A stretch of DNA of 64,000 nt from Mytilisepta virgata (taxonomy: Eukaryota; Mollusca; Bivalvia; Mytilida; Mytilidae): the NCBI GenBank assembly GCA_028015205.1, contig CM051516.1, positions 60,206,230 to 60,270,229 on the forward strand, written 5' to 3'. The notes beneath the pieces are model-generated. The model ran no database searches. It was not told where the DNA came from and was given only the letters and a program-made list of their open reading frames with translations. This document shows, one piece after another, positions 2,790 through 56,195 of this stretch. A program made the translations under genes and the position numbers. The stretch's first letter is position 1. Each line of letters opens with the position of its first letter.

Positions 2790-2893
2790 GCATCTGGATC
2801 AACGAGAATTGTTATATACAATCAAACCGATGAGTCGTAAATCGACGAAATGTGCACATCTTGTGCATCAAAATTGGTATCAAAGATTTTTAT
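2790..2893 (+). repeat. 3' fragment of hammerhead-bearing repeat (copy a)
   Basis: Matches the terminal part of the repeat also found at 12.1, 30.0 and 47.8 kb, ending in the shared TTGGTATCAAAG terminus. It lies just upstream of the transposase remnant and is 5'-truncated. Confidence 0.85.
2821..2866 (+). ncRNA. Hammerhead ribozyme-like motif, copy a
   Basis: Core order: CCGATGA (consensus CUGAUGA, here with U4 changed to C), helix II GTCG/CGAC around a TAAAT loop, GAAA, palindromic ATGTGCACAT as helix III, cleavage-site C, then TTGTGC. The helix I 5' strand is lost (it reads ATCAAA instead of GCACAA), so this copy should be inactive in isolation. Confidence 0.6.
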
Positions 2894-2899
2894 TTTGAA

Positions 2900-3660
2900 T
2901 CATCTACTAGAAATTTAGAAAATGTAATTAAATTGCAGTTATGCCTTACATTTCAAATGTCAAGCTCGTAGAAATAGTTCTTTATTAGTTTCTTTGTCTT
3001 GGAGTAAGCCTCTTTGTTGATCTTTCCTGCTGTTGTGAGGTTTAATTGAGGGGGAAGGGGAGAATGCGTAGGAACTAAACTTAAGTAATCTCACAAACGC
3101 CATTAAACACTATTTCCTATTGTTCCTGTATTTTGTAATAGAACTTTATTTCGGACCTTTTGTGGTTTTGATAGGAATTTCTTAACATCCTTATTTAAGG
3201 GCTGTTAGGAGTTTGCAAAGGGGTGCGGCCACATATTTTTATTTATAATATTTTAGACAAAGCTTAATTTCATATTAATTACTTGGTCCTATTGAACAAG
3301 TAAAATAGAACTTTCAACCTAAGATATCCTTCCTGTTTACAATACGAGTTTACTATGAATTAACAATATTCTCCATTGGTAACACAGTGTGCAATATGCC
3401 TTTCTTCTGTAGACAAGATACGGACCTCGCGGTATGTTTGAACTTATAAGACTTATAAGAAAATATACGTGCAGACGACAATTGAACAAAACATCATATC
3501 ATACAAAGAAAGTATTTCCATATGACACATGCCTCTGAAACCACATATGGATTTCAGTCACTGGATAAATATTCACGCGTCAGTGCATAAATTAGATCGT
3601 TACATCATACCCGATTACCCGTGTCATAACCCCAGCGCGTGCTTGTTAATTGCACTACGC
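2900..3660. other. Gene-free sequence
   Basis: No exon or repeat recognised. From about 3540 the base composition becomes less AT-rich and leads into the candidate regulatory block. Confidence 0.5.
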
Positions 3661-3810
3661 ACGTGTCATTAGATACTATAGATAACGGATGATAACTTTG
3701 TTTATCTCTGCAGATGACCCGTTGTTAATTTTTTGTTGAAACATCAATGTTTCAGCTGTAATTGTCAACCAATGGCGATCTCCTCGGGGGTTTTCTATAA
3801 ATGCTTAAAT
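3661..3810 (+). promoter_or_regulatory. Candidate orphan promoter or enhancer block
   Basis: Three GATA-type motifs are clustered (GATAAC at 3681 and 3691, TTATCT at 3702). They are followed by a CCAAT box near 3770 and a TATA-like CTATAAAT near 3795, in promoter-like order and spacing. No credible ORF follows: the frame at 3856 opens on TTG and is lysine-rich low-complexity sequence. It could be the promoter of a non-coding RNA, a distal enhancer, or chance. Confidence 0.3.
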
Positions 3811-5567
3811 GACAATTAAATAATTGATTTTGAATATAATGTAGAATCTAGGAGTTTGTCAAGAAATTGGCATTTTGATCTTTTAAAATTGTTCTTAAAT
3901 TATAACGTCAAAGAAATAGTATCTTTTGAAAAATTTTCATTTAAACGGAAATTTGATTTCGTAGGCAACCGGAAAAAGAAAAATCTATATAAAATAAAAC
4001 GGTATGAACAGAAAATAAAATGTGAATTTTCTCAACATGACAAGTAATAATAATTATGCGACTGCCAAGGGATCTTACCAGGGACCTTTTTTATTGTAAA
4101 CACTGGGTCGATTTTGCTATACAGAATAACATCAATTTTTATTCATTTAAGGATGCTAAAGGTCAACGAATTTTGATTTTTACCACATTTAACAAGTGAA
4201 ATTGGCCTATCTTAATAAAAATTCATTTTTAGTGCCTGTTCATCTAGGTTTCAACACAGACTCGCAACATAGTAATTATTATTCTTATGCGGTCTGGACA
4301 CCAATTCTATGTATTTTTTTATTGTTTTGAAGGCAATATATTAGGTTTAGATTTCAAACAGGTTTTTATTTTCTATTTTCGATAGTCGAGAAAGTAAAGA
4401 GATAGCTTTAAAAGATGAACAGTCTAGACTTAGGATAATTTGTATGAAATAAAAATGTTCTCTTTTTTGTATCCATTACGGTCAAACTAGCATACTAATT
4501 ATCAAACATAAGTCCATCAGAAGTGATACGTATGAACCGCCCATCTCCGCTGTTGTGTGATTAGATTCAGGGTTAATTACAAACTCTGATATTAAAATTA
4601 GTAGATTGAAAATTAAGAAAAATCAATTAGAAAGTGTCGTTGGGTTGGTAAAAATCACTTTGAAGTGTTTGTGAAACAAGGTAACAATACTTCCGTAGAA
4701 TAGCTATATTACTTTCTGTATTTCACATATCAAAAACGAATGTCAATCAAATTAGTGATAATTTGCATATTTTCATGTTTTCTACACCTGTAATCTCGGT
4801 TCATAAAGTACGTATTAGAAAAATTAAAAAGCAGAAAATTGTATTTATGAGGATCACTTCAGAGCTGGTTTGATCGATGTCCTTTCATCTGAGACTTTGT
4901 TGTGAAATTAAAATCTAAAAAAAAAACAAAAAAATTATGAAGAAATTTCGGAAATGTGAAATAATTATGTACTAAAAGTCCAATTCATTAGTTGAAACAC
5001 CATTCGTGTTTTCAAATAAACTGTATTAACATGATTAGACTTTTCTGTTTTTTTTTCTGAAGGACTTTTAAATTATAAGTTTTTTTTCAGTTTGTTTTAC
5101 ATGCATTGTTTCATTACAAAGTTTTTGACACCAATATTATTGACGTCTCTTTCGGTACATGTAGTTAGCGGTTATGACGGTTATTTCATATGCTATTTCT
5201 TTCCATCCTAAAAAAATCTTCAAAAATACTTTTATTAAATGTTTATCGATAGTACATAAACTACTAAAAATTCTTCTTTCATGAATACGACATTTTCAAA
5301 ATGGAATCCGATACCTATCTCGATAATTGTTGTATAGATATCCATTTTTGCCGTTTATAGAACCAGTTTGGTATGTTCTAATTATCCGCCTACAAGCAAG
5401 CATGGGGTATTGAAAACAATTATGACGTAATAAATAAGATGTTGTGTCATCATCCACACATTCCCATTTAAAACGATACTTTGGAATGAATAAAAACAAA
5501 TAAATGAGCCTTCTAAGCAAGCGGGAAGACCAAAAATGGTTTGATGCACCCACGTAACATGGCTCCA
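3811..5567. other. Gene-free AT-rich sequence
   Basis: No exon, repeat family or RNA gene recognised. The minus-strand frame at 5296-5568 has no family I know, and its ATG lies directly beside a homopolymer run. Confidence 0.5.
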
Positions 5568-5594
5568 TTTTTTTTTTTTTTTTTTTTTTTTTTT
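5568..5594. repeat. Poly(T) tract, 27 bp
   Basis: Uninterrupted T run. It could be the reverse-strand poly(A) of a retroposed sequence, but no retroposon body is recognisable beside it. Confidence 0.95.
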
Positions 5595-5621
5595 GGAAGC
5601 TAGGAAGTAAGCCTTTCCAAC

Positions 5622-5925
5622 TACGGTGGTCTGGTCAGAGATTTTTCTGATGTCAAACGGACTTTTTTTCTAGAATTGGCAGGTGGCTCGGGATTTTAGG
5701 TTGAGGGACAAGATTTTTGAAAAGAATTATTCACGTAAGTAAAGCAAATAAGGATTTCCAGGTAAAAAATTAATTTTTAAAGTCGAAAATTATTGGAAAA
5801 ATTTGTTTTAAAATCTTAACAGTTTTATGTATGGAGTGCGATCTAACGCCCCACGGATCCAGCGAGTTCTAGAAAAATCCCTTTGACATCAGAGGAATCT
5901 TTACGCCTGTCGTGACAGCAGAAGA
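5622..5925. mobile_element. Possible degenerate inverted-repeat element
   Basis: A stretch near 5638 (CTGATGTCAAACGGAC, then TTCTAGAA) matches the reverse complement of the stretch at about 5868-5910 (CTGATGTCAAAGGGA, then TTCTAGAA). The arms are roughly 40-55 bp and imperfect. This fits an old MITE, but ends and target duplications are unclear. Confidence 0.4.
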
Positions 5926-7084
5926 GTGCATGATCATATGTTCAAAACAAATAAGGTTATAGTTCAATATATAAATATCTTTTAAAAATTGGTATTATTT
6001 TTCCAAATGGATTTAAATTGAATTTGTTCATTTGAAGTAAAATTTCTTTATTTCTTTAAACATTTATGATACAGTTTTAAATAATGTTCTGAGAAAATGT
6101 CTGAACAAATCGAAACGGAATTTGGCTCAAAAAAGTATTCTTCATATGTACAAAGACACAAAAAATAAAATTTAAAAAATGACCGCCATTTTCAACATAA
6201 CCGCCATCAAAATTCAGAATAAATTCTTAAAAAAACTTATTTAATTGTGAATCGAAATGAAAGTTGGCATATAAATAGCAAAACACACTGCCTATACCTA
6301 CCGCGTGTTTCAAAATTTAGCTCATTGCGGCCATCTTGGCCATCAAATATCTCAGGAACGGTTTAACTACTAGTAAAAAAGTACTCTATATATGTTTGTA
6401 ATTCTTTAGTTGACTTTGTTTTACAGCATTTTTTGGTCATTGTTTTGTCTTTCCACATTATCAGTATTGAGCATTGCTGATGAAGCTTAATTCAATAATA
6501 TATGTATTTAAAGTGATTTTAAACGTTTATTGCTACCAATAAGGTGGACACAAGTATTTAAACCAGCATATCACCGATAGTCATCTATCATTTTGATGTT
6601 AACGTGAAATTGATTCTTTTAGTTTACTGCTTTAAAATTGCTAACATTTTGGCACCTCTTCTAAATAGCTAAAGTGTTGGTTTAAAAATCATAAAATTGT
6701 TGTTTTCTTATCATATATGTATCGTTCATTCTTTTCTATTACTTTCAAATATAGAATTGCGAATAACATGCCATTTCTATGGTTTTATATTGAAAAGCAC
6801 TAGCTGGAGGATAGTAATTCGGGATGGCCTATCCATACAAGGTATACAAGTCTTCTTCTATCAGAAAATTTTCGCATTTTTCCTATCAGAATCTAAATAA
6901 TTAATGACAGCATACGCCTGTTTTGTAGATTTTAGTGTAGTTAGACAGTATTTGAGAAAAGTTTTGAGCGGCAGGACCTGCCATTAATTCTTTCTTAATC
7001 AAAATATTTTTTAAACGTTTGTTCAGTGCATAAAAAGTCGACATTAAGTACCTTCTAATAATTCCATCGATACAAAAAATGCAA
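5926..7084. other. Gene-free sequence
   Basis: Nothing coding is seen. Short related motifs of the type CCGCCATTTT and GGCCATCTTGGCCATC occur at 6180-6350. Confidence 0.5.
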
Positions 7085-7850
7085 TAAAACATAACAAGAG
7101 GCTCATCTGACTTCTATCAGCTCATTTTAAAATGTAAGTTCTGCTGTATCCACCAGGCTGTTAAAGAAATGTGAAATGTCAAAATGACCTTGACATTTGA
7201 CCTTTGATCTGAAAAAAGGGATGATTTGCACATTTCCTTCCATTCATCATTCCTGTCAATATTGGGTACAATCTGCCCATTATTTCCAGATCAAATGAAA
7301 AAAAAAGTCATTTCCCGAATATGGTTTCCCATTGAAACGTCGGGTAAGCGGCTGAATCTCAAACAAAAGTTGATAATTTGTAGAGGGTATTGCTGTAATC
7401 AATGTTGCGAACATTCAAACATTTCATAATATAGTTTCAGAGGTAAAGATTTTTGAAAATTGGCAAATGGAAATGAAAGATGGCCTTTGGCGGCCATTTT
7501 TTTATCCAACCAAGACCAAATGATAGATCATTTGTAGTGGTACTTCCGTATATTATTCCTGCCAACTTTGGTTACAATCTGCAAATGACATTTCGCCCAT
7601 GGTTTCCATGGAAACTTTGAGCAACCGCAGCCGTAGTGGAAGAATTTCAACCAAGGGTGGATCGTTTGTAAAGATTATTGCCGTCATAATCCTGCAAAGT
7701 TTCAAAGTATTTTATAATGTAGTTTTAGAGGAGAAGATTTTTGAAAATTGAACGATCAAAATAAAAAAAATAGGCTCTGGCGACAATGTTGTTCATCCAA
7801 CCGGAACCAAAGGTGGATTGTTTGTATGGCTCTTATTTGTTCTTAGGAGT
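7085..7850 (+). repeat. Dispersed repeat with a 306-bp internal duplication
   Basis: Two diverged tandem units align with a period of about 306 bp. The first starts near TCCTGTCAAT at 7251 and the second near TCCTGCCAAC at 7557. Shared blocks in order are a GGTACAATCTGC / GGTTACAATCTGC type block, a GGTTTCC block, TTGAAAATTG, a TGGCGGCCAT / TGGCGACAAT type block, and CATCCAACC. No protein is recognised; it is probably the internal part of a non-coding repeat. Confidence 0.65.
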
Positions 7851-8370: not shown

Positions 8371-8622
8371 CCTCCACCGATTTGTGACTTCCCCGGATTG
8401 ACTTTGTTGAACTTCACGACGGATGCCGTATACGGAGCAGGAACTGCTTATCCTTCCGGAGCACCTGGGTTCAATCCTGGCTTTTATAGGAGTTCGTTTT
8501 GTTCATTGTTTTTTAGTTTTCTGTGTTTATTTGTTGTGCTTGTGGTTGTTCATTTGTCTTCCCGGGTTTGTCTGTCCAATGGATTACGTTTTTTTATTGC
8601 TCCTTAGGTATATTTGTCCTTT
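8371..8622 (+). repeat. Dispersed element with YPSGAPEF-type frame, copy 1
   Basis: Shares its whole length with 39907-40164 and its first part with 58417-58572. The boundaries on the left (CCTCCACCGATTTGTGAC) and right (TATATTTGTCCT) are common to copies 1 and 2. The frame starting at 8398 reads TAYPSGAPGFNPGF, followed by a hydrophobic Phe/Cys/Val-rich tail, and ends at a TAG shared with copy 2. The family is unknown to me; it is probably the end of a mobile element. The frame opens on TTG, so it is not an independent gene. Confidence 0.75.
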
Positions 8623-11586: not shown

Positions 11587-11604
11587 TTTGATAACAATTT
11601 TGAT

Positions 11605-11650
11605 GCACAAGATGTGCACATTACCTCGATTTATGACTCATCAGTTGTGC
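11605..11650 (-). ncRNA. Hammerhead ribozyme-like motif, copy b
   Basis: On the minus strand: helix I GCACAA/TTGTGC is perfect, CTGATGA is intact, and helix III ATGTGCACAT is intact. Helix II (GTCA/CGAG) is damaged and the GAAA is altered to GTAA. Probably inactive. Confidence 0.6.
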
Positions 11651-12057
11651 TCAAGGCCTAAAATGTAGAAAACTTCAAGAATAATCCAAACGGTTGAAGT
11701 GCAAAATCAAAAATACCAAAATGACCAAAATGTGTAAACCCAAAACCATCTAATGATAAAACTATGCAATGGGGAGATAACTCCTTAGTTTTCACAAAAT
11801 CTAACATTTTTGTAACAGTAAATTTTAAGTATAATTTTCGGGATAGTTTTGAAATAGAAGAAACTGAGCTGGTGATTCCCCTTTTTATACCAGGAGATTT
11901 TCACGTTACAAAATTGTAAAATTTGTGAAAACTAAGGAGTATCTCCGTCGTGCATAAGTCTTTCCTTTACCCCTTTTGAACATTTTGGCATTTTTTGAAT
12001 TTGCTCTTCAACTATTTTTATTGTTGTTTTGGCTTTCAACATTATAGGCCTGGCAAT

Positions 12058-12105
12058 GAGCACACCTGATAAGTTGTATATCGACGAAATGTGCACATCT
12101 TGTGC
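12058..12105 (+). ncRNA. Hammerhead ribozyme-like motif, copy c
   Basis: Reads CTGATAA (G8 changed to A), helix II GTTG/CGAC closable through a G-U pair, GAAA, ATGTGCACAT, cleavage-site C, then TTGTGC facing GCACAC upstream. The G8 change removes the usual general acid, so activity is doubtful. Confidence 0.6.
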
Positions 12106-12338
12106 GTCAAAATTGGTATCAAAGAATTTGATTACATGTAGCACCTTCAGATAGTATTATACATGTAGTACTTTTTTTATCCTGGCTGTAAGACGTTCTT
12201 ATTCAGTCATTGTCTTCAGGGCCATTTAGTACTTAAGACTATTTATTCTATTGGTCCTTTTTCAAGTCTACATGACGACTCTTATATGTCTTTTCACATG
12301 TCCTGTTGGAAATGGCGAATACCCATTATGTGATTGAT

Positions 12339-16565: not shown

Positions 16566-17876
16566 ATGGCTACAAGTGCAGGACTGTATCTGGCATCCAA
16601 TACTCCACCACAGTTAAATCCAACTTCATTAGGAGACCAGATTCATAACATGCAGTGTGGAATTTCTCAACAAGCTCAATATCACCACAGAAATGACTTA
16701 CAGGAATTAAAATATCAGGAAATGAAATATATGCCCCCGCAGCACCAAAATGGGCATCGTTTGGACTACCATAACCCTTGGGGTATTCCGTGCGCGGACG
16801 CTTGGAACAATTCAGCTATGCCCCAACTTCAGGATATGAGGGATATTCGGGATAGTGTTGTTATGAGGGACATAAAATATGATATTAAGCAAAATCAAGG
16901 AAATGATGGAAGTCAGCTGGCTACTTTACATCACAGACCCCAGCAGATTCACTCGCCACACGCCTGGCACACACAACTGTCATCACCCCATTTAAACTTA
17001 CCAAATGGTGGGGGTCAAATGCAGCACCACGGTTACGGGATGCCAATGAATGGAATGTTGTCTCCCCATGGTATGCACCCAGCAATGAGGGACCCTGAAC
17101 ACGAACTGGACCATCACAATCCATCGGATGAGGATGCCCCATCATCTGATGATCTGGAAGCTTTTGCAAAACAGTTCAAACAGAGACGTATAAAGCTAGG
17201 ATTCACTCAAGCTGACGTTGGACTCGCTCTAGGTACTTTATATGGTAATGTTTTTTCTCAAACGACAATTTGTAGATTTGAAGCTCTTCAGTTAAGTTTT
17301 AAAAATATGTGTAAACTAAAACCTTTATTGCAAAAGTGGTTAGAGGAAGCAGACTCCACCACGGGGTCTACTACTAGTATGGACAAAATTGCCGCTCAGG
17401 GTAGGAAACGAAAGAAGCGTACAAGTATAGAAGTGACAGTTAAAGGTGCGCTGGAACAACACTTTATAAAACAACCAAAACCAACTGCACAAGAAATATT
17501 GCATTTAGCAGACTCTTTACAGCTGGAGAAAGAAGTTGTGCGTGTTTGGTTTTGTAATCGTCGACAGAAAGAAAAGCGAATGACCCCTCCAGGGGTGGGA
17601 GCCAACGGTGAATTGCTTATGACTGATTCTGATCAGGGTGAAAATTCTAGTGATAGGAGTCCGATGTCACCTCCGATGAGCCAAAATGGACTTAACGGGG
17701 TACCTCAACACCCTGGAAATCAGAACGGACTAGTAAATATGTCTATACCCTCATCAATGAACTCACATGGTATGTCACCGACTGGTCACTTAGAAATTGG
17801 TCAGTTATTAAACTCTCACCTTCAACAGCCTCCGGTTCATCATTACAATACACAAAACCACTCACCGACCCACTGA
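16566..17876 (+). CDS. pou3f: POU class III homeobox transcription factor (Brn1/2/4, Oct6, drifter type)
   Basis: Sequence-specific nuclear transcription factor; class III POU proteins act in neural, glial, ectodermal and excretory development in animals. The 436-residue frame runs from ATG to TGA without an intron, as in vertebrate POU3F genes and insect drifter. The first ~185 residues are rich in His, Gln, Pro, Met and Asn and are probably unstructured or activating. The POU-specific domain is about residues 189-263 ([20 protein letters not shown] ... [20 protein letters not shown] ... LQKWLEEAD). A Ser/Thr linker is followed by the homeodomain, about 281-340, opening with [10 protein letters not shown] and ending in the recognition helix [15 protein letters not shown], with the POU-typical Cys at homeodomain position 50 and Asn at 51. 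The [20 protein letters not shown] and [10 protein letters not shown] blocks place it in class III rather than II, IV or VI. The C-terminal tail (341-436) is Ser/Pro/Asn/His-rich. No frameshift or missing key residue is seen. Frames on the opposite strand here are shadows. Confidence 0.97.
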
Positions 17877-22014: not shown

Positions 22015-23543
22015 ATATACTCTCTCAAAAAAGAAACGCAACATCAGATTATCTTTTTGAAATATTATTTTTCCGGACAAATAACCAATAAATATGAAAA
22101 TATATGTACACATGATCATAATTACACCTTCATAAAAAGTTTCCAGGTACAATCATTTAAATTCATCCACCCGTAAACGACTTTGGTCGCAATCTGGGAC
22201 ACCCTACGATTTACGCATTGCCAAAAACTGGGTCGACTTTCACGTGCAAATCATGGGTTATTTTTTAGCTCAGTCAGTCGGTATAAAAACCCGGTATTTC
22301 TTTTCATGAATGCATTCGTAAAATAAAATTCTGATGAGGTGACGCTATGCCAAGGTTAGACGCTGCTACCCGGAATATCGCTATCGGACGACTAGAGGCC
22401 GGAGAATCACAGAATGCTGTTGCTGTAACGTACAATGTTCATCGTAGCACAATTTCACGCCTTTGGGGACGCTACCTGCAGCTTGGTACTACGACAGATC
22501 GGCCACGTTCAGGGCGCCCGCGTGTTACAACCAGGGCGCAAGATCGTTACATCAGACTTTTCCATCTGCGGAATAGGACTATTGCTGCAACAGAAACAGC
22601 TGTAAACGTCCCTGGGTTGCGCCGTGTATCAGCACAGACAGTACGCAATCGGTTACGTTCTCATGGATTGAGGGCAAGAAGACCTTACTTTGGAGCAACA
22701 CTGAGACGCCAACACCGCCGAGCGAGGGTTAGATGGTGTACTACAGTTCGTGCATGGAATTTACAGAACTGGAGAAGAGTATGGTTCAGCGATAAGTCAC
22801 GTTTTCAACTGGAAAAGCGAGATGGTCGCATACGTGTGTATAGGCGCCGAAACGAACGTTTTGCGCAAAACTGTGTTGTGGAGAGAGACAATTTTGGCGG
22901 AGGCAGTGTTATGATGTGGGCCGCTATTTCTTATGCCAGAAACACACAGCTGATACATATCCAAGGCAATCTGAACGCTGTTAGGTATAGAGACGAAATT
23001 TTACGACCTCATTTATTGCCCGTAATTGACATTCGGAGAGAAATTTTTCAGCACGACAATGCCCGACCACATACAGCACGTGTAACAGTAGACTTTTTAG
23101 AACAACAGAATGTCAATGTGATCCGTTGGCCGTCACGATCACCCGATCTTAATCCAATTGAACATTTGTGGGATGAAGTGGATCGGCGCGTGCGCCAACG
23201 ACAACCACCACCGCAAAATCTGCAACAATTACAGCAGGCACTTCAGTTTGAGTGGCAAAGGATACCGCGTGTTCGAACTCAGCGTTTAATTCAATCTATG
23301 CCAAGAAGAGTCGGGGCTGTGTTACAAGCAAATGGTGGACATACCAGATATTGACAATTTATGAGTGATTTATTGACAATATGTGACAAACTGTGATATT
23401 CCAAGGTAAAAGAACTCATGAACAAGAAGTGTGCCAATTTTTGCATTCCTGTGTAAATTATTTATATCATAAATTATGAAAATAATATATGAAGTAAATT
23501 TCCTATTTTCTGTATGTTGCGTTTCTTTTTTGAGAGAGTATAT
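22015..23543 (+). mobile_element. Complete Tc1/mariner transposon
   Basis: Perfect 30-bp inverted repeats, including the TA target dinucleotides, lie at 22015-22044 and 23514-23543; the inner part reads CTCTCTCAAAAAAGAAACGC. They bound a 1.53-kb element with a single intronless transposase. The flanks outside show no further inverted similarity. Identical ends plus an open frame suggest recent insertion. A TATA-like GGTATAAAAACC near 22280 precedes the gene and may be the transposase promoter. Confidence 0.95.
22347..23354 (+). CDS. Tc1-like DD34E transposase
   Basis: Cut-and-paste transposase that binds the element's terminal repeats and inserts at TA. It has 335 residues, the usual Tc1 length. 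Residues 1-60 carry a helix-turn-helix (about 15-45, ending STISRLWGRY) and a GRPR-type AT-hook motif at 56-59; a second helix-turn-helix is around 61-110. The catalytic triad is visible: Asp149 in VWFSDKSRF, Asp237 in QHDNARPH, and Glu272 in SPDLNPIEHLWDE, with exactly 34 residues between the last two (DD34E). A GGGSVMMW block, typical of Tc1, is at 184-191. The common Glu after the first catalytic Asp is Lys here (SDKS rather than SDES). No stop or frameshift interrupts it, so it may be functional. ATG 22347 is the first start after the TATA-like box. Confidence 0.95.
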   Translation: MPRLDAATRNIAIGRLEAGESQNAVAVTYNVHRSTISRLWGRYLQLGTTTDRPRSGRPRVTTRAQDRYIRLFHLRNRTIAATETAVNVPGLRRVSAQTVRNRLRSHGLRARRPYFGATLRRQHRRARVRWCTTVRAWNLQNWRRVWFSDKSRFQLEKRDGRIRVYRRRNERFAQNCVVERDNFGGGSVMMWAAISYARNTQLIHIQGNLNAVRYRDEILRPHLLPVIDIRREIFQHDNARPHTARVTVDFLEQQNVNVIRWPSRSPDLNPIEHLWDEVDRRVRQRQPPPQNLQQLQQALQFEWQRIPRVRTQRLIQSMPRRVGAVLQANGGHTRY

Positions 23544-29762: not shown

Positions 29763-30072
29763 CGGAGTTTGTCAGTAGTTACGATTTGTCTCTCCTTCGA
29801 ATATCCCTTTGGTATTTCTTGACTTTACTTACTGTTACAAAATTGAAAAAAAATTGTAAAACCTAAGGAGTATCTTCCTCGTGCATAGAGCTCTGTCCTT
29901 AGATGGTTTTGGCTTTATCTCTTTTTTGTCAATTTGGTATTTTTTAATTTGCTCTTCAACGTTATGGATTGTTGTTTTGGTTTCAACATTTGAGGCCTTG
30001 AGCACAACTGATGAGTCGTAAATCGGGGAAATGTGCACATCTCGTGCATCAAAATTGATATCAAGAATTTTA
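29763..30072 (+). repeat. Junction of two repeats: SGAPEF-family end plus hammerhead unit (copy e)
   Basis: 29763-29832 matches the right end of the element at 42249-42500 (CGGAGTTTGTCAGT ... TTCGAATATCCCTTTGG ... CTTGACTTTACTTA). It abuts, within a few bases, a hammerhead-bearing unit that starts at GTTACAAAATTG, the same 5' truncation point as the right-hand unit at 11.9 kb. The short minus-strand frames here are not credible genes. Confidence 0.75.
30002..30047 (+). ncRNA. Hammerhead ribozyme-like motif, copy e
   Basis: CTGATGA is intact, GAAA is intact, helix III ATGTGCACAT is intact, and the cleavage-site C is present. Helix II is GTCG/CGGG, so the pair next to the core is lost. Helix I is GCACAA/TCGTGC with one mismatch. 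Confidence 0.65.
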
Positions 30073-30300: not shown

Positions 30301-30401
30301 AGAGATACAATGGATAAGCGTTGGTTCTTGAAAAAGAAACCATGAGCCCGGAGGGCGAATGGTTTGTTTTTCATGAACCAACGCTTATCCATTGTATCTC
30401 T
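30301..30401. mobile_element. Near-perfect 43-bp hairpin
   Basis: 30301-30343 and 30359-30401 are inverted repeats with about two mismatches around a 15-nt GC-rich loop (GAGCCCGGAGGGCGA). Arm blocks include GATACAATGGATAAGCG and AAAAAGAAACC. A diverged half copy lies at 31303-31345 (GCGTTGATTCC ... AAAAAGAAACCAC). This indicates a dispersed palindromic element rather than a unique site. Confidence 0.85.
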
Positions 30402-41790: not shown

Positions 41791-42248
41791 GAAATTTACA
41801 CCTATATATTCAAGTAAAGAAATCCTCCAAAAACATTCGATACATTAATACAAGAGTGTTTTCGTAGAAAGTATCGATAGATGCCGATGACATGCTGAAG
41901 CCTTCTTAATCGTGTGTGTCTTTTTTAAAACTGTAAGTCTTTTTTTTACAAATATCTCAACTGTTTAATTGGAATGAAAGTAAAACGTTCTACTCTACCT
42001 TTCGTTTCTCATAATCGTAATTAACTATTGTCTTTTTCACTGCTAAAATGACTCAAATATTTTACAATAGCGTATTTTCAATTTTTTGTGTGCAGTGGTT
42101 GATTTTTACTTTATTATGACGTTACCACAAACAAATGTGACGTTGCCGAATATGTTCAAGTTTTGTTTTCAAACTTTTGAACCATGTTGACCATTGGGAT
42201 ATACCAGATTGTTATTTGTTAAATGAAAATGAACCTGTTCCATTGATG

Positions 42249-42500
42249 TTATCCCTTCCTCATACCGGATTTGACATGGGCAGCATGGCGGGTGTCCTGC
42301 AGGAAGTAGAGACTGTTTACTCTTCCGGAGCACCTGAGTCTACCCCCGGTTTTTTAGTGGGGTCCATGTTGTTCATATGTTTTTAGTTTTTAATTGTAGT
42401 GCATGTATTGTTTTGGTCTTGTCTTCGTTGTTCTCCGGAGTTTGTTGTTACAATTTTTCCCTCCTTCGAATATCCTTTGGTATTTCTTGACTTACTTATT
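42249..42500 (+). repeat. SGAPES-type element, left arm of an inverted pair
   Basis: Matches 43161-43414 in opposite orientation over its whole length. Its frame reads MAGVLQEVETVYSSGAPEST, alignable residue by residue with the GVVYGAGTAYPSGTPEFTPG frame at 39.9 kb although the DNA has diverged. The right part (GTGCATGTATTGTTTTGG ... CTCCGGAGTTTG ... CTTCGAATATCC) recurs at 50.1 kb and at 29.8 kb. Confidence 0.85.
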
Positions 42501-43160: not shown

Positions 43161-43414
43161 AGTAAAGTCAAGAAATACCAAAGGGATATTCGAAGGAGAG
43201 AAAAATCGTTACAACTGACAAACTCCGGAGAACAACGAAGACAAGACCAAAACAATACATGCACTACAATTAAAAACTAAAAACGTATGACCAACATGGA
43301 CCCCACCAAAACACCGGGGGTAGACTCAGGTGCTCCGGAAGAGTAAGCAGTCTCTGCTTCCTGCAGGACACCCGCCATGCTGCTCATGTCAAATCCGGTA
43401 TGAGGAAGGGATAA
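43161..43414 (-). repeat. SGAPES-type element, right arm of an inverted pair
   Basis: Reverse-orientation copy of 42249-42500, differing at a modest number of sites. It keeps the CCTGCAGGACACCCGCCATG and GGGGGTAGACTCAGGTGCTC blocks. Confidence 0.85.
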
Positions 43415-43697
43415 TATATATTCTATGAAACAACCTTAGATGGACCAAATGTGCACATTCCGACCAACTAAAAAATAAGAAAAATTGAAAAAAAAACTTA
43501 ACATAATCCTTAACTTCCAAAATGTTATCCATGTTCATGTTTTAATTGGGACTTCTACTTTACATCGCTTTGCAAAATACCAGGAGCTGTAAAATATATA
43601 TACTTCTGGATTTTTAATAAAGAGAAAATACGTCAATTGCATTTTTTGCCATTTCTTATTACCCACGGACTATGACTGTTTTGACATTAAGATGACC

Positions 43698-45708: not shown

Positions 45709-46616
45709 TGAAGGGCCATTCGGGTCACATTGCAATTGTTGACACGTTCGCTAGAGAAACGCGTCGCTGTTTGTTCGCGTACCCTACAGCAACGCGTTGC
45801 TGTTGGTTCGCGTACCCTAGAGCAACGCGTAACAGTTAGTTCGCGTACCCTAGAGCAAAGCGTAACAGTTAGTTCACGTATCATTGAGTAACGCGTATCA
45901 CATTATTCGCGTACGCTATAGCAACGCGTTGATTCTTAACAGAGAATGTGGTTCGCGTTTCTGTAGGTAACGTGTATCATACAAAAACCTTTCAACCCTA
46001 TTACGGTTTTGTTGGCCAATGAAATTGAGATGTCAGCAGGTTCCCATACGTGTATGCAAACAAACACACACACACACAAATTCGCTCCTAGACTAGAAGT
46101 CTGAGGTCAATAAAACCTAGGTATTTAAAATTCATATTGGCCCAACAAAGCTGTATCATAGAATACGCAGTTCAATATATCATATGTCTTGTTATATAAT
46201 GATAACCTTGAAAGAACTGATGACAGCTTTTCGTCACTTATAGGGTCTGATTATAATTTTTCTGTGACACAGACACTAAATTTTCGGTTGATATCACTCA
46301 GAAATTCCCTCGTGTTTGTGTCCTCCATTTGAAATTGTGAAGTAAGGGCAAATTTTACTCGTTAGAACATATATTTTAGAATTTCTAGAACAGACGAGTT
46401 CATTACAAATGTAAGGGATATCGTTTATACCGTGAATAACTTCAAACTTGCAACAGTTGCAACGCGTTACTCTATGTAACGCGAAGGAACTGTAACACGT
46501 TGCTCTAGGGTATGCGAACCAACAGCAACCCGTTGCTGTAGGATACGCGAAAAAACAGCAACGCGTTCTCTGGCGAACGTGTGAACAATTGCATTATGAC
46601 CCGAATGGCCCCTCAT
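45709..46616. mobile_element. Inverted-repeat element carrying a 33-bp satellite
   Basis: The ends are TATGAAGGGCCATTCGGGTC on the left and the complement of GACCCGAATGGCCCCTCATA on the right. Inside each end lies a tandem array of a 33-bp unit (TCGCGTACCCTAGAGCAACG followed by a CGTAACAGTTAGT-like part), in opposite orientation in the two arms. On the left, units begin at 45775, 45808, 45841, 45874 and 45907, then 45953 after a 13-bp expansion. On the right, 3-4 units span about 46450-46575. The centre has a CA microsatellite (about 46060-46078). TA dinucleotides at the ends may be the target site. The minus-strand frame at 45693-45884 merely translates the satellite. Confidence 0.85.
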
Positions 46617-47555: not shown

Positions 47556-47835
47556 GGGCATCCCCAGCTCAGTTTCTAAGCCCGAAATTGTTACTTCAAA
47601 TTTACTTTTACAAAATTGCAAAATTTGTGAAAACTAAGGTGTGTGTCTCTCATGCATAGCTTTGTCCTTAGATGGTTTTGGCTTCACCCCTCTTCGTCAT
47701 TTTGGCATTCTTGAATTAGCTCTTCAGCCTTTTGGATTGTTGTTTTATTTTTCATTATTCTAGGCCTTGAGCACAACCGATGAGTCGTAAATCGACGAAA
47801 TGTGCACATATTGTGCATCAAAATTGGTATCAAAG
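47556..47835 (+). repeat. Hammerhead-bearing repeat, copy f, near full length
   Basis: Runs from GGGCATCCCCAGCTCAG through TTTACAAAATTGCAAAATTT, a TTAGATGGTTTTGGCTTCAC block and a TTGGATTGTTGTTTT block to the ribozyme motif and the TTGGTATCAAAG terminus. With copy b it defines a unit of about 280-300 bp. No conserved long frame. Confidence 0.85.
47771..47816 (+). ncRNA. Hammerhead ribozyme-like motif, copy f (best-paired)
   Basis: Helix I GCACAA/TTGTGC, helix II GTCG/CGAC with a TAAAT loop, and helix III ATGTGCACAT are all perfect. GAAA is intact, and the cleavage site is UA (A is allowed at position 17). The only core deviation is CCGATGA instead of CTGATGA (U4 to C). Helix III is only about 3 bp with a UGCA loop if folded alone, which in known small hammerheads favours action as a dimer. 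Confidence 0.7.
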
Positions 47836-50074
47836 AATTTTATTCCTTAAAGTGTTAACACTGGAACTTTTATTAAATTTTAATAACAATGTCAATGTCT
47901 TGTAATGGCAACTATAATAATTGAGTATGTATTTAGAGTGTTAATTTTTTTTCTATTTCCTTTCATTTAAAGAATTAATTTTTGTGACCATTTCATTGAC
48001 GTGTAACACATGCACAGATATATCTATAAATAACCTTCTACTGACATATGCAAACTTGTCTTTACAATATGTTTTATTTATCAACAACTAGTATCAAATA
48101 AATGACAACTTTAACAGTCATCTTCAAATTTTTGCAGAACCTATCAATACAAAAATGCATTTTCATGTGTGCTAAAAGAGAGACATGTTCTATATGAAAC
48201 AAATGGTTATATATGATCATGATATTTGTTATTAATAAATTTATTAATTTCACATTGTGTGCATTATTCTTTCCATTTTTCTATAAGTCATTTTTTCCCC
48301 ATTCTATTGATCAAGTACATCGTTTAAATTAAATGAACGAAAAAAAAAAATAGAACTCGCAAAATGAAACTGCTAGATTTCTCAGTATATGGGCAGATAG
48401 GTAATATCACTGACAAATGTGTCTGAACATTTTTTGTCTATCCTATTATAAGTTATAAAAAGCCATGAAGTGACAAGAGAGTTTATTACAGTGAAATATT
48501 GTGTGACGGTGTAAAGTTACAACTTCCGCCTCAGAAAATCGAAACTAAATTTTGTTTTGTAATCGAAACTGAATATGAAATGAACTAACGTGTAATGTTT
48601 CATTCATAACATCATTTAATAAAACTAACTCGTATTGAGATATGTAAATTTTATTTTTGCTACGAATGATATTCAATGTAAATTATTCTGGATCTAATTG
48701 CCGGCTAATTCATTCGAGGTTTAGCCTTCGCTTTTAACACCAAGTTAATACTATCCATATTATTATGCCTTGCAAATGAGTGTTTTGCTAAGCATATTTA
48801 CACAGTGTTGGCATTACAAATTAGAGTATACGGTAGTCACAAAGTGGTTTCGTCTTTCAGATAGAGCTTCTTCAGGAAATGGGCATTGATCATTTTCATC
48901 CTCTATAAAATATTAATACAATTGCATGACACCGGTTTTTTCCTCGTACTTCATTACAATTGCTAATGCGAAATCTGAATTGCACTCACAAATTTTGCAT
49001 AATACTGAAAGCTAGCGCCACAAACTATCTTTTTCCAGTAGGCGATCGGCCGTCGACAGTTAAACATTATAAAGATTTTATTTCTCTCAAAGGATATTTA
49101 CATAATTTTACTTTTCATAGTTATACATTTACGGACTCTGGAATGTAGTTGTTATTCATCTCATTAATGTGCTATCACAGATTTCAAATGAAAAATCGGG
49201 ATGCTTGTGTCAATTTCAGTCTGATTTAAGTGTTGTATCCAATCGGTTAAAGCTTTAAAGATGCAGATTCACGCAAAGGATGACCACATTACCTGTCTTA
49301 TACCCGATTTGGTACGTTAAAGAAATTTTCAAGGTAAGTGATCACACATTTAATTTATTTACAATGTGTCAGTCTACGCTCGTATTTTATCTGACGAAGT
49401 TACATCAGGTTTTATTTATAGTTATTATACGTCGAATTGTGCATGTAATTAAACCTCTCAATAAAACACTAAAATTATAACAGCACGACGATCCTTTCAT
49501 GCAACGAACTTTTTTCTTGCAGTACGATTATCGAATGCGCATGCGTGCTTTGTTTTTCAGGCTAACGACTTCAGAACAGTTGAAACAAGCATTCCATTAA
49601 AGTCTAAAATCTTTCCATTGTATTCGAGAAGATAAGATGTTTACACTTTTTTGTCTGACCTTATTTGAAATAAGACTATTATGAAGTGTAAAGTTTTTTT
49701 TAACAAAAACTGACAAAACAGAAAGTTAAATCATAATTATCTTAAACATGCATATGCTCGCACATTTGTTTACAATTAAAGATTTGCACTGTTATCTAAT
49801 CCAATAATATTTTTACTTGCATTTTCACTTGTCTGTGTAACATCTAAAACATTTTTTTTTTTTTAAATAAAACATTACTATTTTATAATCATAAATTGAT
49901 TGACTGTATGGATGGATGTCTGAGTGTCAAAAATAAATTTGTTTATTCCTCTATATTGATTTGTGATAATAGCCAGACTAACTTTACAAAATATCACGAT
50001 AGCCAAGTGAAATATATACAAAGAATAAACCTTTCCGAAACAACTCTGTTTATTTCTAGCCTCAGAGGCGTTAT
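47836..50074. other. Gene-free AT-rich sequence
   Basis: No exon recognised. TGCGCATGCGTG near 49536 resembles an NRF1 site. The frames at 48960, 49280 and 49896 have no family resemblance. Confidence 0.45.
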
Positions 50075-50248
50075 TTACACCCGAGCCTACCCCCAGTTTT
50101 TTGGTGGGGTCCATGTTGGTCGTATGTTTTTAGTTTTTAATTGTAGTGCATGTATTGTTTTGGACTTGTCTTCGTTGTTCTCCGGAGTTTGTCAGTTTTC
50201 GACCCCCCCCTTCGAATATCCCTTTGGTATTTCTTGACTTTACTTATT
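50075..50248 (+). repeat. SGAPES-type element, 5'-truncated copy
   Basis: Matches the right two thirds of 42249-42500, from GAGCCTACCCCCAGTTTTTT through GTGCATGTATTGTTTTGG and CTCCGGAGTTTGTCAG to CTTGACTTTACTTATT. A CCCCCCC run interrupts the usual TTCTCTCCTTCG block. The overlapping frames are incidental. Confidence 0.8.
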
Positions 50249-50393: not shown

Positions 50394-50459
50394 TTGATAT
50401 TGGGAATATAATAACCTACATTCTGCTTGATATTCGGAATATAATGACCTACATTCTGG
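50394..50459. repeat. 33-bp tandem duplication
   Basis: Two units with period 33 bp, each containing TTGATATTSGGAATATAAT and GACCTACATTCTG or AACCTACATTCTG. Confidence 0.85.
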
Positions 50460-51008
50460 ATTTTACCAAAATTTTAATCAGCAGAATAAGGAAATACTTT
50501 TTGAGACAATTATAAATGACACAACTAAATGACAAAACCCATATATGTCACTTCAAAATGAAATTATACACAGTAATGTGTTTGTTTTGATTAATTAATT
50601 TTTTGTACGTGTTCAAAAAGAACAGGAGGGGCGTTCTATAATGGAGATGTAATTTCCGTTTGTAAGAAATGTCATTTTAATTTTTACGAGATGTTGAAGA
50701 TTTTGTTTGAAGGATTCTATGCTTTTTTTTAGATTTTAGTTTTTGTTGACTTTTATACTGCTGGTGGACTGTAAGTGGCATTATCAGCCCAGTAGCCAGA
50801 ATTTTTGTCCTGGCATGATTCATAACTTAAATGCCTTTAAATTTTCCGTTCAAAATTTGACAAAAATTACTAGAAATTTCTTCCTGTTTTAGCAGAGGTA
50901 ACCCTTAGCTGAGTTTGAATCCCTTTTTATTTTAATTGTTTTGGTTTTTGGTGGTTTTGTTTATTAATTCAACATAATATAACTGGATTTCTAACATTTT
51001 GATCTCGA

Positions 51009-51052
51009 GCACTGCTGATAAGTTGTCAGTCAACGAAATGGCCATACAGTGC
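51009..51052 (+). ncRNA. Hammerhead ribozyme-like motif, copy g (covarying)
   Basis: Diverged copy in which helix I is GCACTG/CAGTGC, helix II is GTTG/CAAC and helix III is ATGGCCAT. All differ from the other copies yet remain fully paired. GAAA is intact and the cleavage dinucleotide is UA. The core reads CTGATAA (G8 to A). The surrounding body of the repeat is barely recognisable. Confidence 0.7.
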
Positions 51053-51391
51053 ATCAAAGTTATTTCGGTATTTGTGATACATTTTATTATAGTATACTTT
51101 TCAGAACCATTTCAGAGCAAAGACACTTATGTTTCTATAACTCCCTGACAATTAGCATCATTGTAAAAAGAAAATTTCTGATCAGGCTCCTTTCCAGTTT
51201 TTAATTGTTTTGATCAGAATCTTGATTAGAAACTTTAGAAATGTGTCAGCGTACTTTCCACTTTCTGTAAATTGTAGTTAATCATAATAACATGAGCCTA
51301 ATTGTCGTGAAACAATTATGTTTATGATAAAACATGTATTTCAAACAGTAAAAATAGCTCTAGCTTGAATAGTGTTAACCATGTTAAAACT

Positions 51392-51487
51392 TATGTAATC
51401 CCACCATTTGTGTGTGTCTGGACCAAATTGTCCTAACTCTATGTAATCCCACCATTTGTGTGTGTCTGGACCAAATTGTCCTTACTC
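51392..51487. repeat. 48-bp tandem duplication
   Basis: Two almost identical 48-bp units containing ATGTAATCCCACCATTTGTG and GGACCAAATTGTCC. The unit includes an 8-bp palindrome-like GGACCAAATTGTCC core. Confidence 0.9.
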
Positions 51488-52110
51488 TATGTTGTTTTTT
51501 GTCTTTCAGTCGTTTTTTTAACAGAGGCTATTTGCCTGCTTATTAATTAGTGTTCTATTCTAGACATTTCCTGAAATATTTGTTTTGAATTATCATCGGT
51601 AACTACCATATGAACATAAAAAATTTAGTAAAAATCCTTCAAAAATAATTAGTGGACTCTGCTCTGCTGTTTTTAATTTTTTTTTTTTAAAGGATTCATA
51701 TTTTGGACTGCTATGAAGATAGTGAAATCATTAAATAAACTAGTGTTTGTTAATCGGATAAATGCTACAGACTTGATTTTGAAAATGTTACAATTAAAAG
51801 GTATTAATTGCATTATTTGCATAAGATTTTTTTAGGCTTTTATAAATATTCCCTTTCTTCTATTCACTAAAAAGAACAACTTTTTCACGTTTTCTATAAT
51901 TTTTCGACTACAGGAGATATTATCAAATTAATACAATAGATATGAAAAATAAAAGTTTATGAATATAAAACAAAAAACATTTGGTATAATGAAACTTATC
52001 AGATTTAATAGCTTTGATTAATCCAAGAATTTTAAAACTATTTAAATGGAATTAAGCGTGTTGGGTTTTTACCTAAATTATTTTTGATTATTTGGAGACA
52101 TAGAATATTC

Positions 52111-52409
52111 ATAGAATAGAGAATGGAAACGGGGATTGTGTCAAAGAGACAACAACCCGACCAAAGAGCATAAAACAGCTCAATGCTACCAATGTCTCTT
52201 CAACGCAGCGAGAAAATCCCGCTTCAGCTGGCCCCTAAACAATAATTCATACTAGAACGGCACACTAAAACGACACTCGGCTCACCTCGGCCGATTAGAT
52301 GGAGAGTAGCGGAGTTGGCCGAGGTTTGCCGATTGTAAACTCCGAAATATACAAATGAACCAAAATTTTTAAAAAAAAAACACAATAGTAACAAAGGCTA
52401 GAGGTTCCA
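52111..52409 (+). repeat. Abundant mytilid-type repeat, copy 2, with GC-rich insert
   Basis: Same start and blocks as 37674-38008, but 52257-52333 holds about 77 bp not found in copy 1. That insert is GC-rich with repeated CTCGGC and GGCCGA motifs. Confidence 0.85.
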
Positions 52410-53162
52410 TAGTCCATAGACAAGCTTGGGTAGTCAGTCAGGTCAGTAATTTTAATCTAAGACAATTTCCGGTCAAAAAGTGTTTTAGCAACTTCCCTGG
52501 ATTAATTTTCGGCCTTGTTTTAAACTGTATAAAGTATGATGTCATAGAATGTTCGTACTGATGAAATTCTGACCTTGTTTTCATTGTAACGAATACTCAC
52601 ATTTTGCAAAGTGTAATATCTCGGGTTACAATAGTTATGTAACAATAATTTGAGAAGCAATCTTCATACATAGTTAATCTCTCGTCCAAACAGCCTTACA
52701 ATTATAATTCCTATAATTACCAAAACCACTCGTGCATAACAAGTGAAATGAGCCGATTCTGATATTAGCTATCCTCACATTGAGGTAAAATGTGATTTAT
52801 ACGTGCTAATTATGGGTTTTAAAAATACACGGGTAATAACATTTAAGATTATTTTATTACCTTTGAATTAACGAGTTCAACAAAACGGAAAAAAATCGTT
52901 GAGTATGTTTTATGCATATCGAAGCTAGCATACTGTCATGACGGTATTTGCTGCATGGCTATTTAGTAGTATATGACTTCAAATGATCTTAATTATTTAT
53001 CTTGAAAAACGTATTTTAAGCAAATAAGAGGGGAAAATGAAATACTATATGTGAAATGACACTCTTTAGATTAATATTGATTTTTTTTTATGATGTTTGT
53101 AAAAATTACCTAATGTTTTTGCACTTAACCTATTTGTATATAATATTGGTTACAGTAAGTAT
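52410..53162. other. Gene-free sequence
   Basis: No exon or repeat recognised. The frame at 53056-53277 overlaps the LINE tail. Confidence 0.45.
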
Positions 53163-53700
53163 CAAGACAAAGACAAAATGCTTTATTCACTCAGACACAT
53201 ACGTGTACAAGAGGACAAACACAAATAGTTACAGAAATCAGATGACACACAAGTCAGATGACACAGTAATAACATAGTCACAGTTAGAGTGACATATAAT
53301 ACAACATACACATGTAGGAAAATAATAAATTATATATCTACTTTATTATAGGTACTTAAATATTTTCTTAAGAAAAATGGAAAGTTTTTTATATAATGGA
53401 ACATTGCAAATATATAGATAACAATCCTTTCATTTTTGATAAGCTTGGATTTATGGTATAATAAGATGGTATGTACGTTTCCTGTAATTGTTTAATATTA
53501 TCATGACTACAAACAAATAAATAATGAAATTCGTTTCCTAAATCATTTTTGCACAAACGACAGAGTCTATTTTCTTTCGAAAGTCCCGACCATCTACCCG
53601 TTTCAGTTGGAAATTTTGCGTTACAAGATCTTAATTTAGAAATATTAATTCTCTCCCCGTGGTTTAATTTCAACTAGTAAGCCTGTAAGTATTTTTGAAT
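53163..53700 (-). pseudogene. 5'-truncated LINE fragment (reverse transcriptase C-terminus)
   Basis: The minus-strand frame ending at 53389 contains KLRSCNAKFPTETGRW followed by CRLCKNDLGNEFHYLFVC, a C-x2-C-x8-H-x4-C motif typical of the C-terminal part of LINE polyproteins in marine animals. An in-frame stop lies just upstream (YLQAY then stop). Toward lower coordinates a ~220-bp untranslated part ends in AATAAAGCATTTTGTCTTTG, a polyadenylation signal with a CTTTGT-type tail at about 53163-53185. The endonuclease and catalytic RT domains are absent. Confidence 0.75.
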
Positions 53701-55625
53701 AGAATTCACCCCGAGTTGTATTATCTATTTGCGAAAACCAATGCTTAATATAAACTGACCACATAATGTTTGTTTTATTACAGATTTTAAAATAGACTGA
53801 TCAGACTGTGCATTATTCTACACTATAGATGTATCTAATCATTGTCAACTTAGGTGTTTTCTTTTTGAGTCCTTTTAGTTATTGATCTAAAAACCATACC
53901 CTAAAAACTCTTCACTGAATATTATACGTCCTTTTTATATTCTGTGAAATTATATGTATACGGCGTTTTATTATTTTTTAATGGAAATCTTTTTTTAATA
54001 ACTGAAATGGACACGTACATATATTTATCAGCTTTTAGTATCTCAGATTTCCATCTCACTTTGTCTTACAATGTTGACCTTCAAAGTCTTTTACATGATA
54101 ACAAGGACAAATCCTTTTTTTCATAGGTTTGCGGAAGTAAAACACTCATACTTCACACAACTTGTAAATTTTAGTAAAAAAACCTTGCTAATTTACTTTT
54201 CGACCAAAAGAGACCTTTAGTAACAGTTGATTGAGTTTTACTTGCGCATATTTTTTCAAGTGGTTGTTATATCAGGGTTAGGACAATAATCTAACTATTT
54301 TGGACAGCTTTCAGTTATAAGGAATCTAAAATTTGTGTGAGACAAAATATACAGTTAAACACTAAAAGGATAATATACTAATATTGGTTATAGGGTAGAT
54401 TGATTGATCCACGATATATAAAACCTTAGTGAAGTCCTTAAATAGTTCTTCAAGATACCCTTTTCTATTAATTTGAATTCGACCGATCGGATTGACAATA
54501 GATTTTAAAAATTTCTAAATGTAAATTGCAATAAATTTTGCCAACATAAAGTTGAAAACTTCAACTAAAGCATGTGAGTTACTAATACTAAACTAGCATA
54601 TTGAGAATCAGCCCATGCAACAGCAACAAACCCCTGGGGATTTGAAAAGATTTATAGATTACATATGCGACGTTGTTTTTGACATTTTTTAACTTTTTGA
54701 CAGGTTATAGTTACTGTAATTTAAAAGTTTCACCTTGAATCTTTCATCATACATGTGGTAAAACACCCTTTTTCACGGGTTTTCAATATAACTCGAGCCC
54801 ATTACATCAAAAGAAGATTTTCGGATGATATACTTTTTAGGTCATCATAGCTATTAAAATAAAAGGTGTTGAGTTGACAATACTGTGTTTGAGACTGTCT
54901 TTCTCCAATTTCACGACTGATCAACACATACAATAAGCCATAAAATAGATTTACTGAACATAATGAAGAATCCTTCAGACCATAACACAACCGTTTTTAT
55001 TGCACCTCGACTACTGCTTATGATGCTTAATTTCCGGACGACTGAATTTGTTTTTCAAATTTTATAAATAATGAAGTTACATATCCTGCTGACTGATTTA
55101 CAGATATATTGTATATTGATCAGAAAGTAAAATAAATAAAGAAAACTCAAGCATTTTGTTAACCCCCCTAACCGGAAAGAAATTAGAACAGTCTGAAAAG
55201 ATAATCTAAAATAGCGATAGTTGTATTGAAGGCCCTCATTTAAGAAAAACATAGTTGTTTTGTTATTAATTATCTGACTGAAAGGTCCCTGCCTTTTAAC
55301 TACGGTTGTGTCAAACGCATTAACACTTTAACAAGAATGATCATGTGAATGGGTATTTGTCAGGAAGTTTGCCCGGAGAAAAACACATCACAGTGATAAT
55401 GATAACCCGTTGTGAGACAATTTATCACGGAGAATAAAATCCTATTCAGCTGACTAGCTGCATTTGAAGTCTCATATAAACTTCTCACCAGCAATTATTA
55501 CGTTAAAATGATTTTCTTTTCAAATTAGGAGAGAAAACTGAATGTGTCACGTTATTTACTTTAGAAAAAAGTACACATCTATTTTCTAACGTATACTATA
55601 TACGCCCTGTATTGCATATATAGGG
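53701..55625. other. Gene-free AT-rich sequence
   Basis: Nothing recognised. The frames at 53944, 54802 and 55055 are AT-driven. Confidence 0.45.
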
Positions 55626-55690
55626 GAGACAGAAATATGTTCCATCCTGATATTTCAGCAGAGACGGAAATATGTTCCATCCTGATCTGA
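55626..55690. repeat. 35-bp tandem duplication
   Basis: GAGACAGAAATATGTTCCAT and GAGACGGAAATATGTTCCAT occur with a 35-bp period, each followed by CCTGAT. Confidence 0.85.
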
Positions 55691-55970
55691 TATCCCAGAA
55701 GTTATGTCATTTTGGGTTTGTCATATATCTTTTAGAATGAAAGTATATATTAGCTTCATTTTTACCCACAATATGTATTGTACAGTCTATATTTTCTGTA
55801 TTTAAGTCATCATCTTTCTGTGAACTTGGCTTGCCTTTTTATTTACCTATTTGAGGAAAAATATTTGTCCTGAAATGAAAACATACAAGTTTACAGGTTT
55901 TCGATTCTCTGTAATAGAATAAGATACTCTACATATATTAAAAAATTATATGCTTTAAAACAATTCTTTG

Positions 55971-56195
55971 ATACAAATTTTGATGCACAAGATGTGCACA
56001 TTTAATCGATTTACGACTCGATCAGTTATGCTCAAGGCATAAACTGTTGAAAACCAAAACGACAATCCAAAAGTTTGAAGAGCAAATTCAAAAAATGCCA
56101 AAATGACCAGAAAGGGTAAAGCCAAAACCATCTAAGGACAGAGTTATGCCCGAGGGAGATACTCCTTAGTTTTTACAAATTTTAAATATTGACAG
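55971..56195 (-). repeat. Hammerhead-bearing repeat, copy h
   Basis: Minus-orientation arm from the complement of TTTGATACAAATTTTGATGC at 55971 through the TAAAGCCAAAACCATCTAAG and GGGAGATACTCCTTAG blocks. It is truncated before the 5' end of the unit. Confidence 0.8.
55985..56031 (-). ncRNA. Hammerhead ribozyme-like motif, copy h
   Basis: On the minus strand helix III ATGTGCACAT is intact. The core carries an extra base (CTGATCGA), helix II GTCG/CGAT is weakened, GAAA reads TTAAA, and helix I is GCATAA/TTGTGC with one mismatch. Probably inactive. Confidence 0.5.

Follow-up and report, generated by a model that had tools for sequence, protein, structure and literature searches.

Background

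The closest described relatives of the repeats studied here are the animal retrozymes without long terminal repeats (non-LTR retrozymes) of the mussel Mytilus galloprovincialis, in which type I hammerhead ribozymes reside in repeats of about 350-390 bp that form two families with about 5,000 copies (PMC7229834). Northern blots showed rings of these retrozymes, and one cloned repeat self-cleaved at a rate of about 0.1 per min; the published ribozymes are without most of the usual loop contacts (PMC7229834). Long interspersed nuclear elements (LINEs) or Penelope-like elements acting on the rings have been proposed to spread them (PMC7229834, Discussion). Here we analysed a stretch of 64,000 nucleotides (nt) from the bivalve Mytilisepta virgata, positions 60206230-60270229 of contig C9 in a 1.034-Gb genome of 109 contigs. 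Within this stretch, called the window throughout, an initial annotation had reported eight dispersed copies or fragments of a repeat carrying a hammerhead motif. With a probability of roughly 85% we consider these repeats to be the decayed remains of an animal (non-LTR) retrozyme that is non-autonomous and whose ~350-nt non-coding unit carries one type I hammerhead. The family is best filed under the kind already described in M. galloprovincialis (PMC7229834).

A type I hammerhead at the repeat end

In the consensus, helix I (GCACAA/TTGTGC) comprises 6 bp followed by a bulged A and more pairs, helix II (GTCG/CGAC) comprises 4 bp closed by the loop UAAAU, and helix III has 3 bp and a UGCA loop within the palindrome AUGUGCACAU, with cleavage after C. 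The assignment of the three helices is the one that the initial annotation had proposed, and the mapping was borne out by genome-wide scans. The core together with helix II, CTGATGAGTCG-N(2-20)-CGACGAAA, was found 1,855 times (915 + 940) and the backward pattern 0 times. The exact 46-nt consensus motif occurred at 199 places (95 + 104), again with 0 when read backwards. Intact copies at three loci (L019, L041 and L065; L-numbers denote separate genomic or collection loci) matched the Rfam family RF00163 (Hammerhead_1) over its full length (model 1-45) with 29.8 bits and E 4.2e-4, and the copies in L060 and L044 scored 24.7-28.2 bits. An Rfam covariance-model search had been suggested as a check on the annotation; it matched these genomic copies, below the curated score of the family, and in the window no hammerhead appeared with a limit as loose as E <= 10. 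Together with the compensatory changes described below, the scans support reading the end of the repeat as a type I hammerhead ribozyme whose helix III is palindromic and 3 bp long. By analogy with its published counterparts the motif would be expected to self-cleave.

Copies in the window

All eight copies or fragments could be read directly at the places given in the initial annotation. A unit profile of 338 positions (unit coordinates, u; cleavage after u310), built solely from loci on contig C1, detected each of them with E 7e-82 to 1e-15; on the reversed window the same profile gave at best only E 2.3. It further revealed older relics at 58021-58199, 6410-6493 and 63832-63701 (E 4e-7 to 9e-6). 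Seven window copies were used to train a covariance model of the ribozyme; it added one more relic at 59589-59650 on the minus strand (E 3.4e-5), a sequence that the model does not contain. The copies and relics are as follows, in window coordinates.

2825..2886 (+): copy 2821, 5'-truncated, u275-336; 5' strand of helix I lost; U4 changed to C, core CCGATGA
6410..6655 (+): old relic, u211-293 then u40-133, the second piece with only E 7e-5
11587..11881 (-): copy 11605, u42-334; ribozyme 11590-11653; core GAA changed to GUA (GTA in the DNA); helix II broken
11899..12127 (+): copy 12058, 5'-truncated, u101-338; ribozyme 12057-12120; core CUGAUAA
12345..12565 (-): copy 12339, u19-284; ribozyme mostly deleted
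29827..30068 (+): copy 30002, 5'-truncated, u100-338; ribozyme 29999-30062
47556..47838 (+): copy 47771, top-scoring, u43-338; ribozyme 47768-47831; core CCGAUGA; cleavage base A
50756..51061 (+): copy 51009, old subfamily, u16-325; ribozyme 51006-51067; core CUGAUAA
55963..56189 (-): copy 55985, 5'-truncated, u114-338; ribozyme 55970-56034; base inserted in the core; G12 changed
58021..58199 (+): old unit relic, u152-332
59589..59650 (-): older relic; helix I GUAUUG/CAGUAC; core decayed
63701..63832 (-): weak unit-body relic, u131-264

Copies 11605 and 12058 stand head to head, and the relic at 6410..6655 is possibly a decayed two-lap copy. None of the window copies has an intact ribozyme, each showing a wrong core base, an inserted base, a broken helix II, a truncation or a deletion. 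The initial annotation had gone further and denied every copy a complete core, which does not hold for copy 30002: it keeps all core bases and is broken in the helix II pair 10.1-11.1 (G-G). Of the eight copies described as sharing the motif, copy 12339 has most of its ribozyme deleted and copy 2821 is truncated inside helix I.

A type I hammerhead descriptor returned 1 core-perfect site in the window, 4 sites at <=1 and 4 at <=2 core mismatches, compared with 0, 4 and 76 sites in 60 simulated windows pooled. The first two levels thus stand out and the two-mismatch level carries little information. The motif ATGTGCACAT with <=1 mismatch was found 14 times in the window, where 3.2 were expected, a count reached in 0 of 100 shuffles. 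No stop-to-stop frame of >=90 amino acids (aa) overlaps the eight copies. Weak SNORD82 matches from Rfam were disregarded, as they fall on the ribozyme end of the repeat. ARAGORN found no transfer RNA (tRNA) gene in the window, in which no dedicated RNA polymerase III promoter test was made.

Compensatory changes were examined at two scales. Among seven window copies three pairs were changed on both sides, a number reached by 2 of 500 shuffles. In an alignment of 97 distinct rows from 65 sources, both sides were altered in 34 cells where shuffles gave 9.4 (none of 500 reached this number), distributed over 10 pairs against 6.5 (18 of 500). Sliding this alignment by one column left 36 both-side cells, but then 18.6% of the cells paired instead of 88.2%. 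Helix II is biased in the larger test, since a perfect core and helix II were the grounds on which most of its rows had been chosen.

The old subfamily copy 51009 has helix I GCACUG/CAGUGC, one helix II pair with a compensatory alteration and a differing palindrome (ATGGCCAT). Compared with five younger copies its ribozyme is 68-74% and its body 49-55% identical. Judged from this comparison, the ribozyme is better kept between subfamilies than the unit body.

Unit length, dimers and copy ends

Retrozyme copies were surveyed on contigs C1, C2 and C3. The first sample comprised 64 of the 1,855 perfect-core sites, at 60 loci on C1, namely the first ones listed plus L029 and L030, which were chosen among the later listed places for their closely spaced sites. 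The second comprised 21 of the 199 exact-motif copies, at 20 loci on C2 and C3. Since selection was for a perfect core, each of the resulting 85 mapped copies must span the ribozyme. To judge from shared flanks, L011-L013, L028, L029, L041-L043, L052-L053, L119 and one copy each of L018 and L066 appear to include later duplications of one insertion. The counts below are therefore not all independent events.

A hammerhead-unit-hammerhead layout was found at L034, L044 and L060, and also at L035, where the joint is altered. From cleavage site to cleavage site the unit measures 355 nt (GC 0.39) at L060 and 348 nt (GC 0.36) at L044, such that the 280-300 bp of the initial annotation was an underestimate. 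A non-coding unit of ~350 nt and low GC fits the size range of animal non-LTR retrozymes, ~170-400 nt.

At the 3' side the copies are sharply clustered: 74 of 85 end at u>=329 and 80 of 85 at u>=321 of 338, with the remaining five ending at u141-308. To these five belong L061 and L068, whose second lap leaves the unit body at a short word shared with the tail and continues directly in the latter, a pattern to be expected from template switching. Around the cleavage point two copies end (u305-315) and none starts (u303-320). The profile stops 28 nt beyond the cleavage point and the tail TTTTATT remains visible for about six bases more in the terminal copies, which puts the copy ends at some 30-35 nt from the cleavage site. 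The tail of the unit reads ATCAAAATTGGTATCAAAGAATTTTATT. The 3' clustering is real, within the limit that the copies span the ribozyme.

The 5' ends, on the other hand, are scattered over the unit. The junction from tail to start is passed in 21 of 85 copies, 13 of them with a second lap (L029 and L030 not being among the 13) and 8 starting just before the junction. The longest copy covers 591 unit positions (~1.7 laps); the median is 217. When segments containing the unit start were judged by eye, tail or junction sequence preceded 21 of 24, amounting in L018, L066 and L069 to just ~12 T-rich bases; of the other three, L038 was ambiguous, and L035 and L039 were not preceded by such sequence. 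Dimers, a ~350-nt unit and copies wrapping round it all speak for the retrozyme reading that the initial annotation had put forward.

Near two of the copies, tRNA-like matches just over the Rfam cut-off were seen (L065 1283-1374, plus strand; L019 1316-1412, minus strand), perhaps a tRNA-derived short interspersed nuclear element (SINE).

Predicted action as a dimer

Folded alone, the consensus reached its minimum at -13.6 kcal/mol with helices I and II formed and helix III absent; the full hammerhead fold of the single strand came to -10.7 kcal/mol. When two consensus strands were folded together without constraint, they formed a dimeric hammerhead at -38.5 kcal/mol in which both contribute to one helix III of 10 bp, in line with the dimer action that had been anticipated from the short helix III. 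The perfect 10-nt palindrome after GAA is kept in 25 of the 64 perfect cores of the first sample, and in 19 of these 25 a suitable cleavage base and >=5 of 6 helix I pairs are present as well. Based on these predicted structures, cleavage probably involves two hammerheads joined via the palindrome. The family adds a well-populated case for dimeric hammerheads formed through a palindromic helix III.

How the copies may have arisen

The retrozyme reading starts from features visible in the genome itself: the motif, its copy number, the dimers, the junction-crossing copies and the clustered 3' ends. Cleavage, circularisation by ligation and the enzyme are taken over by analogy with the retrozymes of PMC7229834. 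Transcripts spanning more than one unit would cut themselves at ...CACAUC^UUGUGC, probably as hammerheads paired through the 10-nt palindrome, and a host ligase would join the ends of the monomer RNA into a ring. From a fixed site, lying about 30-35 nt downstream of the cleavage point, a reverse transcriptase of another element would then circle the ring for up to ~1.7 laps. The resulting copies would share their 3' end, vary in their 5' ends and in some cases hold two laps.

Seamless tail-to-start copies cannot come from a unit-length linear RNA, and therefore a ring or a multimer is needed. The clustering of 3' ends away from the cleavage site argues against cleaved linear monomers having been primed at their termini. 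The copies would be explained most simply if self-cleavage and host ligation yield a ring, which is then reverse-transcribed from a fixed site. More tentatively, and with the odds slightly against it, the genomic copies may record fixed-start rolling-circle reverse transcription of a ribozyme-made ring, with the tail serving as docking site for the borrowed reverse transcriptase; this would then hold generally for animal retrozymes. If true, the fixed start would offer a way to identify the partner enzyme by that enzyme's own 3' end, and the partner element should share the retrozyme tail or insertion habit. The family is large, has 199 places with an intact motif and shows a sharp 3' end, so that the partner question can be tested from genome sequence.

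The best surviving alternative dispenses with the ring: the copies would come from linear multimeric RNA read off genomic dimers, with the hammerhead trimming transcripts. Such dimers are present in the genome, and junction crossing alone cannot separate a ring from a multimer. However, none of the 85 mapped copies contains a regular array longer than two laps that could act as a rich source, and the rarity of ends and absence of starts at the cleavage site (2 and 0 of 85) indicate that the usual template is not a linear monomer left by cleavage and primed at its end. We regard this explanation as unlikely.

It is considerably more doubtful that the repeat is SINE-like and derives from a linear transcript that ends in the conserved tail, with the hammerhead as a passenger. 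Clustered 3' and ragged 5' ends, as observed, would be expected if a linear RNA were reverse-transcribed by target priming, and 64 of the 85 copies do not cross the junction. The 21 that do, and the hammerhead-unit-hammerhead layout at >=2 loci, would however not be yielded by a linear RNA of unit length. The single fixed 5' end of such an element is replaced by scattered ends, and the ribozyme of copy 51009 is more conserved than its body.

Least credible of all, to a degree that we set it aside, is that the unit is part of a Penelope-like element with the hammerhead in its pseudo-LTR: such elements do carry minimal type I hammerheads (PMC6155905, PMC7761336) and GIY-YIG matches are abundant in the genome (95 among 150 scored of 491 candidates), but in 30 of these 95 loci, covered with ~1.5 kb on each side, which may fall short of some pseudo-LTRs, the ribozyme model was strong in 4, the unit profile in 5, the loose core-plus-helix-II pattern in 1 and the strict hammerhead descriptor in 0, and the window copies contain no long frame. 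With matches this few and scattered, the retrozyme motif is not a regular part of GIY-YIG loci within ~1.5 kb, and a regular link to Penelope-like elements, which the initial annotation had mentioned as carriers of small hammerheads, found no support in the 30 loci. The GIY-YIG matches themselves are often closely paired in opposite orientation across the genome.

Several observations weigh against a ring-borne retrozyme. In 64 of 85 copies the junction is not crossed, and regular copies exceeding two laps are absent from the mapped set, which was selected to span the ribozyme and contains duplicates of single insertions. Target-site duplications were not clearly above chance in 74 copies (mean score 5.36 versus 5.21 in shuffles, standard deviation 0.13); a score of >=8 was reached by 7 copies versus 3.3 shuffled, with a shuffled maximum of 9. 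In animal retrozymes such duplications are described as occurring 'when present' (PMC7229834), so that the lack of a clear signal is not excluding. The two unit rings from L060 and L044 folded no better than shuffles (z -0.27 and 0.08), at odds with published retrozyme rings, which are called highly self-paired (PMC7229834). The curated RF00163 score of 34 was not attained in the five loci searched, the best being 29.8 bits. Finally, relic 59589 compared with younger copies gave 54-61% identity in the ribozyme and 51-63% in the body, no clear difference.

Other features of the window

The window contains a POU class 3 gene at 16566-17873 with the Pfam domains Pou and Homeodomain; its closest named relative is from the scallop Argopecten irradians (71%), and an unnamed protein is 94% identical. 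A 336-aa frame at 22344-23351 (+) with DDE_3 and HTH_Tnp_Tc3_2 matches resembles a Tc/mariner-like transposase. About 230 bp downstream of copy 30002 lies a 49-nt inverted repeat (30301-30401; 3-nt spacer, 92% complementary). Another mobile-element family is represented by a 200-nt inverted repeat (42246-42445 and 43218-43417, 96% complementary); it recurs at 50078, and less similar members lie at 8386, 39923 and 58414. A 33-bp tandem repeat occupies 45745-45942 and 46462-46567, with an inverted copy nearby.

Relation to known systems

Two other mussel repeat ends share this layout; window copies matched one of them at up to E 8e-6 and the other only at 0.07, and this is not evidence of identity. 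In titles and abstracts the family was not described in hosts other than those named here, these listings being without sequences and most subscription papers lying outside their coverage. A literature search with the motif letters gave, among the matches listed, no title on a natural mollusc repeat. Copy 47771 had no BLAST match among phages and plasmids. Pattern scans of viral and bacterial collections found no relatives, only L001, with hammerhead-like motifs of its own, and L002, a chance match. In L001, a contig of the viral collection, two type I hammerhead-like motifs ~250 nt apart were recognised by eye on the minus strand (~4440-4380 and 4190-4130).

Intact copies align with RF00163 over all 45 positions, but their best score lies under the curated 34. 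With the hammerheads of Penelope-like elements and Terminons they have in common a minimal type I form, many dispersed copies and a presumed action as dimers (PMC6155905, PMC7761336); as far as these elements are described there, the present unit differs in having no long reading frame and in that its motif is not regularly found near GIY-YIG matches. Amphibian retrozymes and the newt satellite hammerheads likewise have a very weak helix III with a (palindromic) tetraloop and work better as dimers (PMC7229834). In that description their helix III has 1-2 bp, compared with 3 bp here, the hosts are unrelated, and dimer activity is for the present family a prediction. The retrozymes of M. galloprovincialis differ, in a comparison by description and not by sequence, from the clustered 3' ends and mostly single-lap copies seen here. 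With them the present family shares the type I hammerhead, the unit size (348/355 nt versus ~350-390 bp), low GC, thousands of copies, head-to-tail units and a genome that also harbours Penelope-like elements (PMC7229834).

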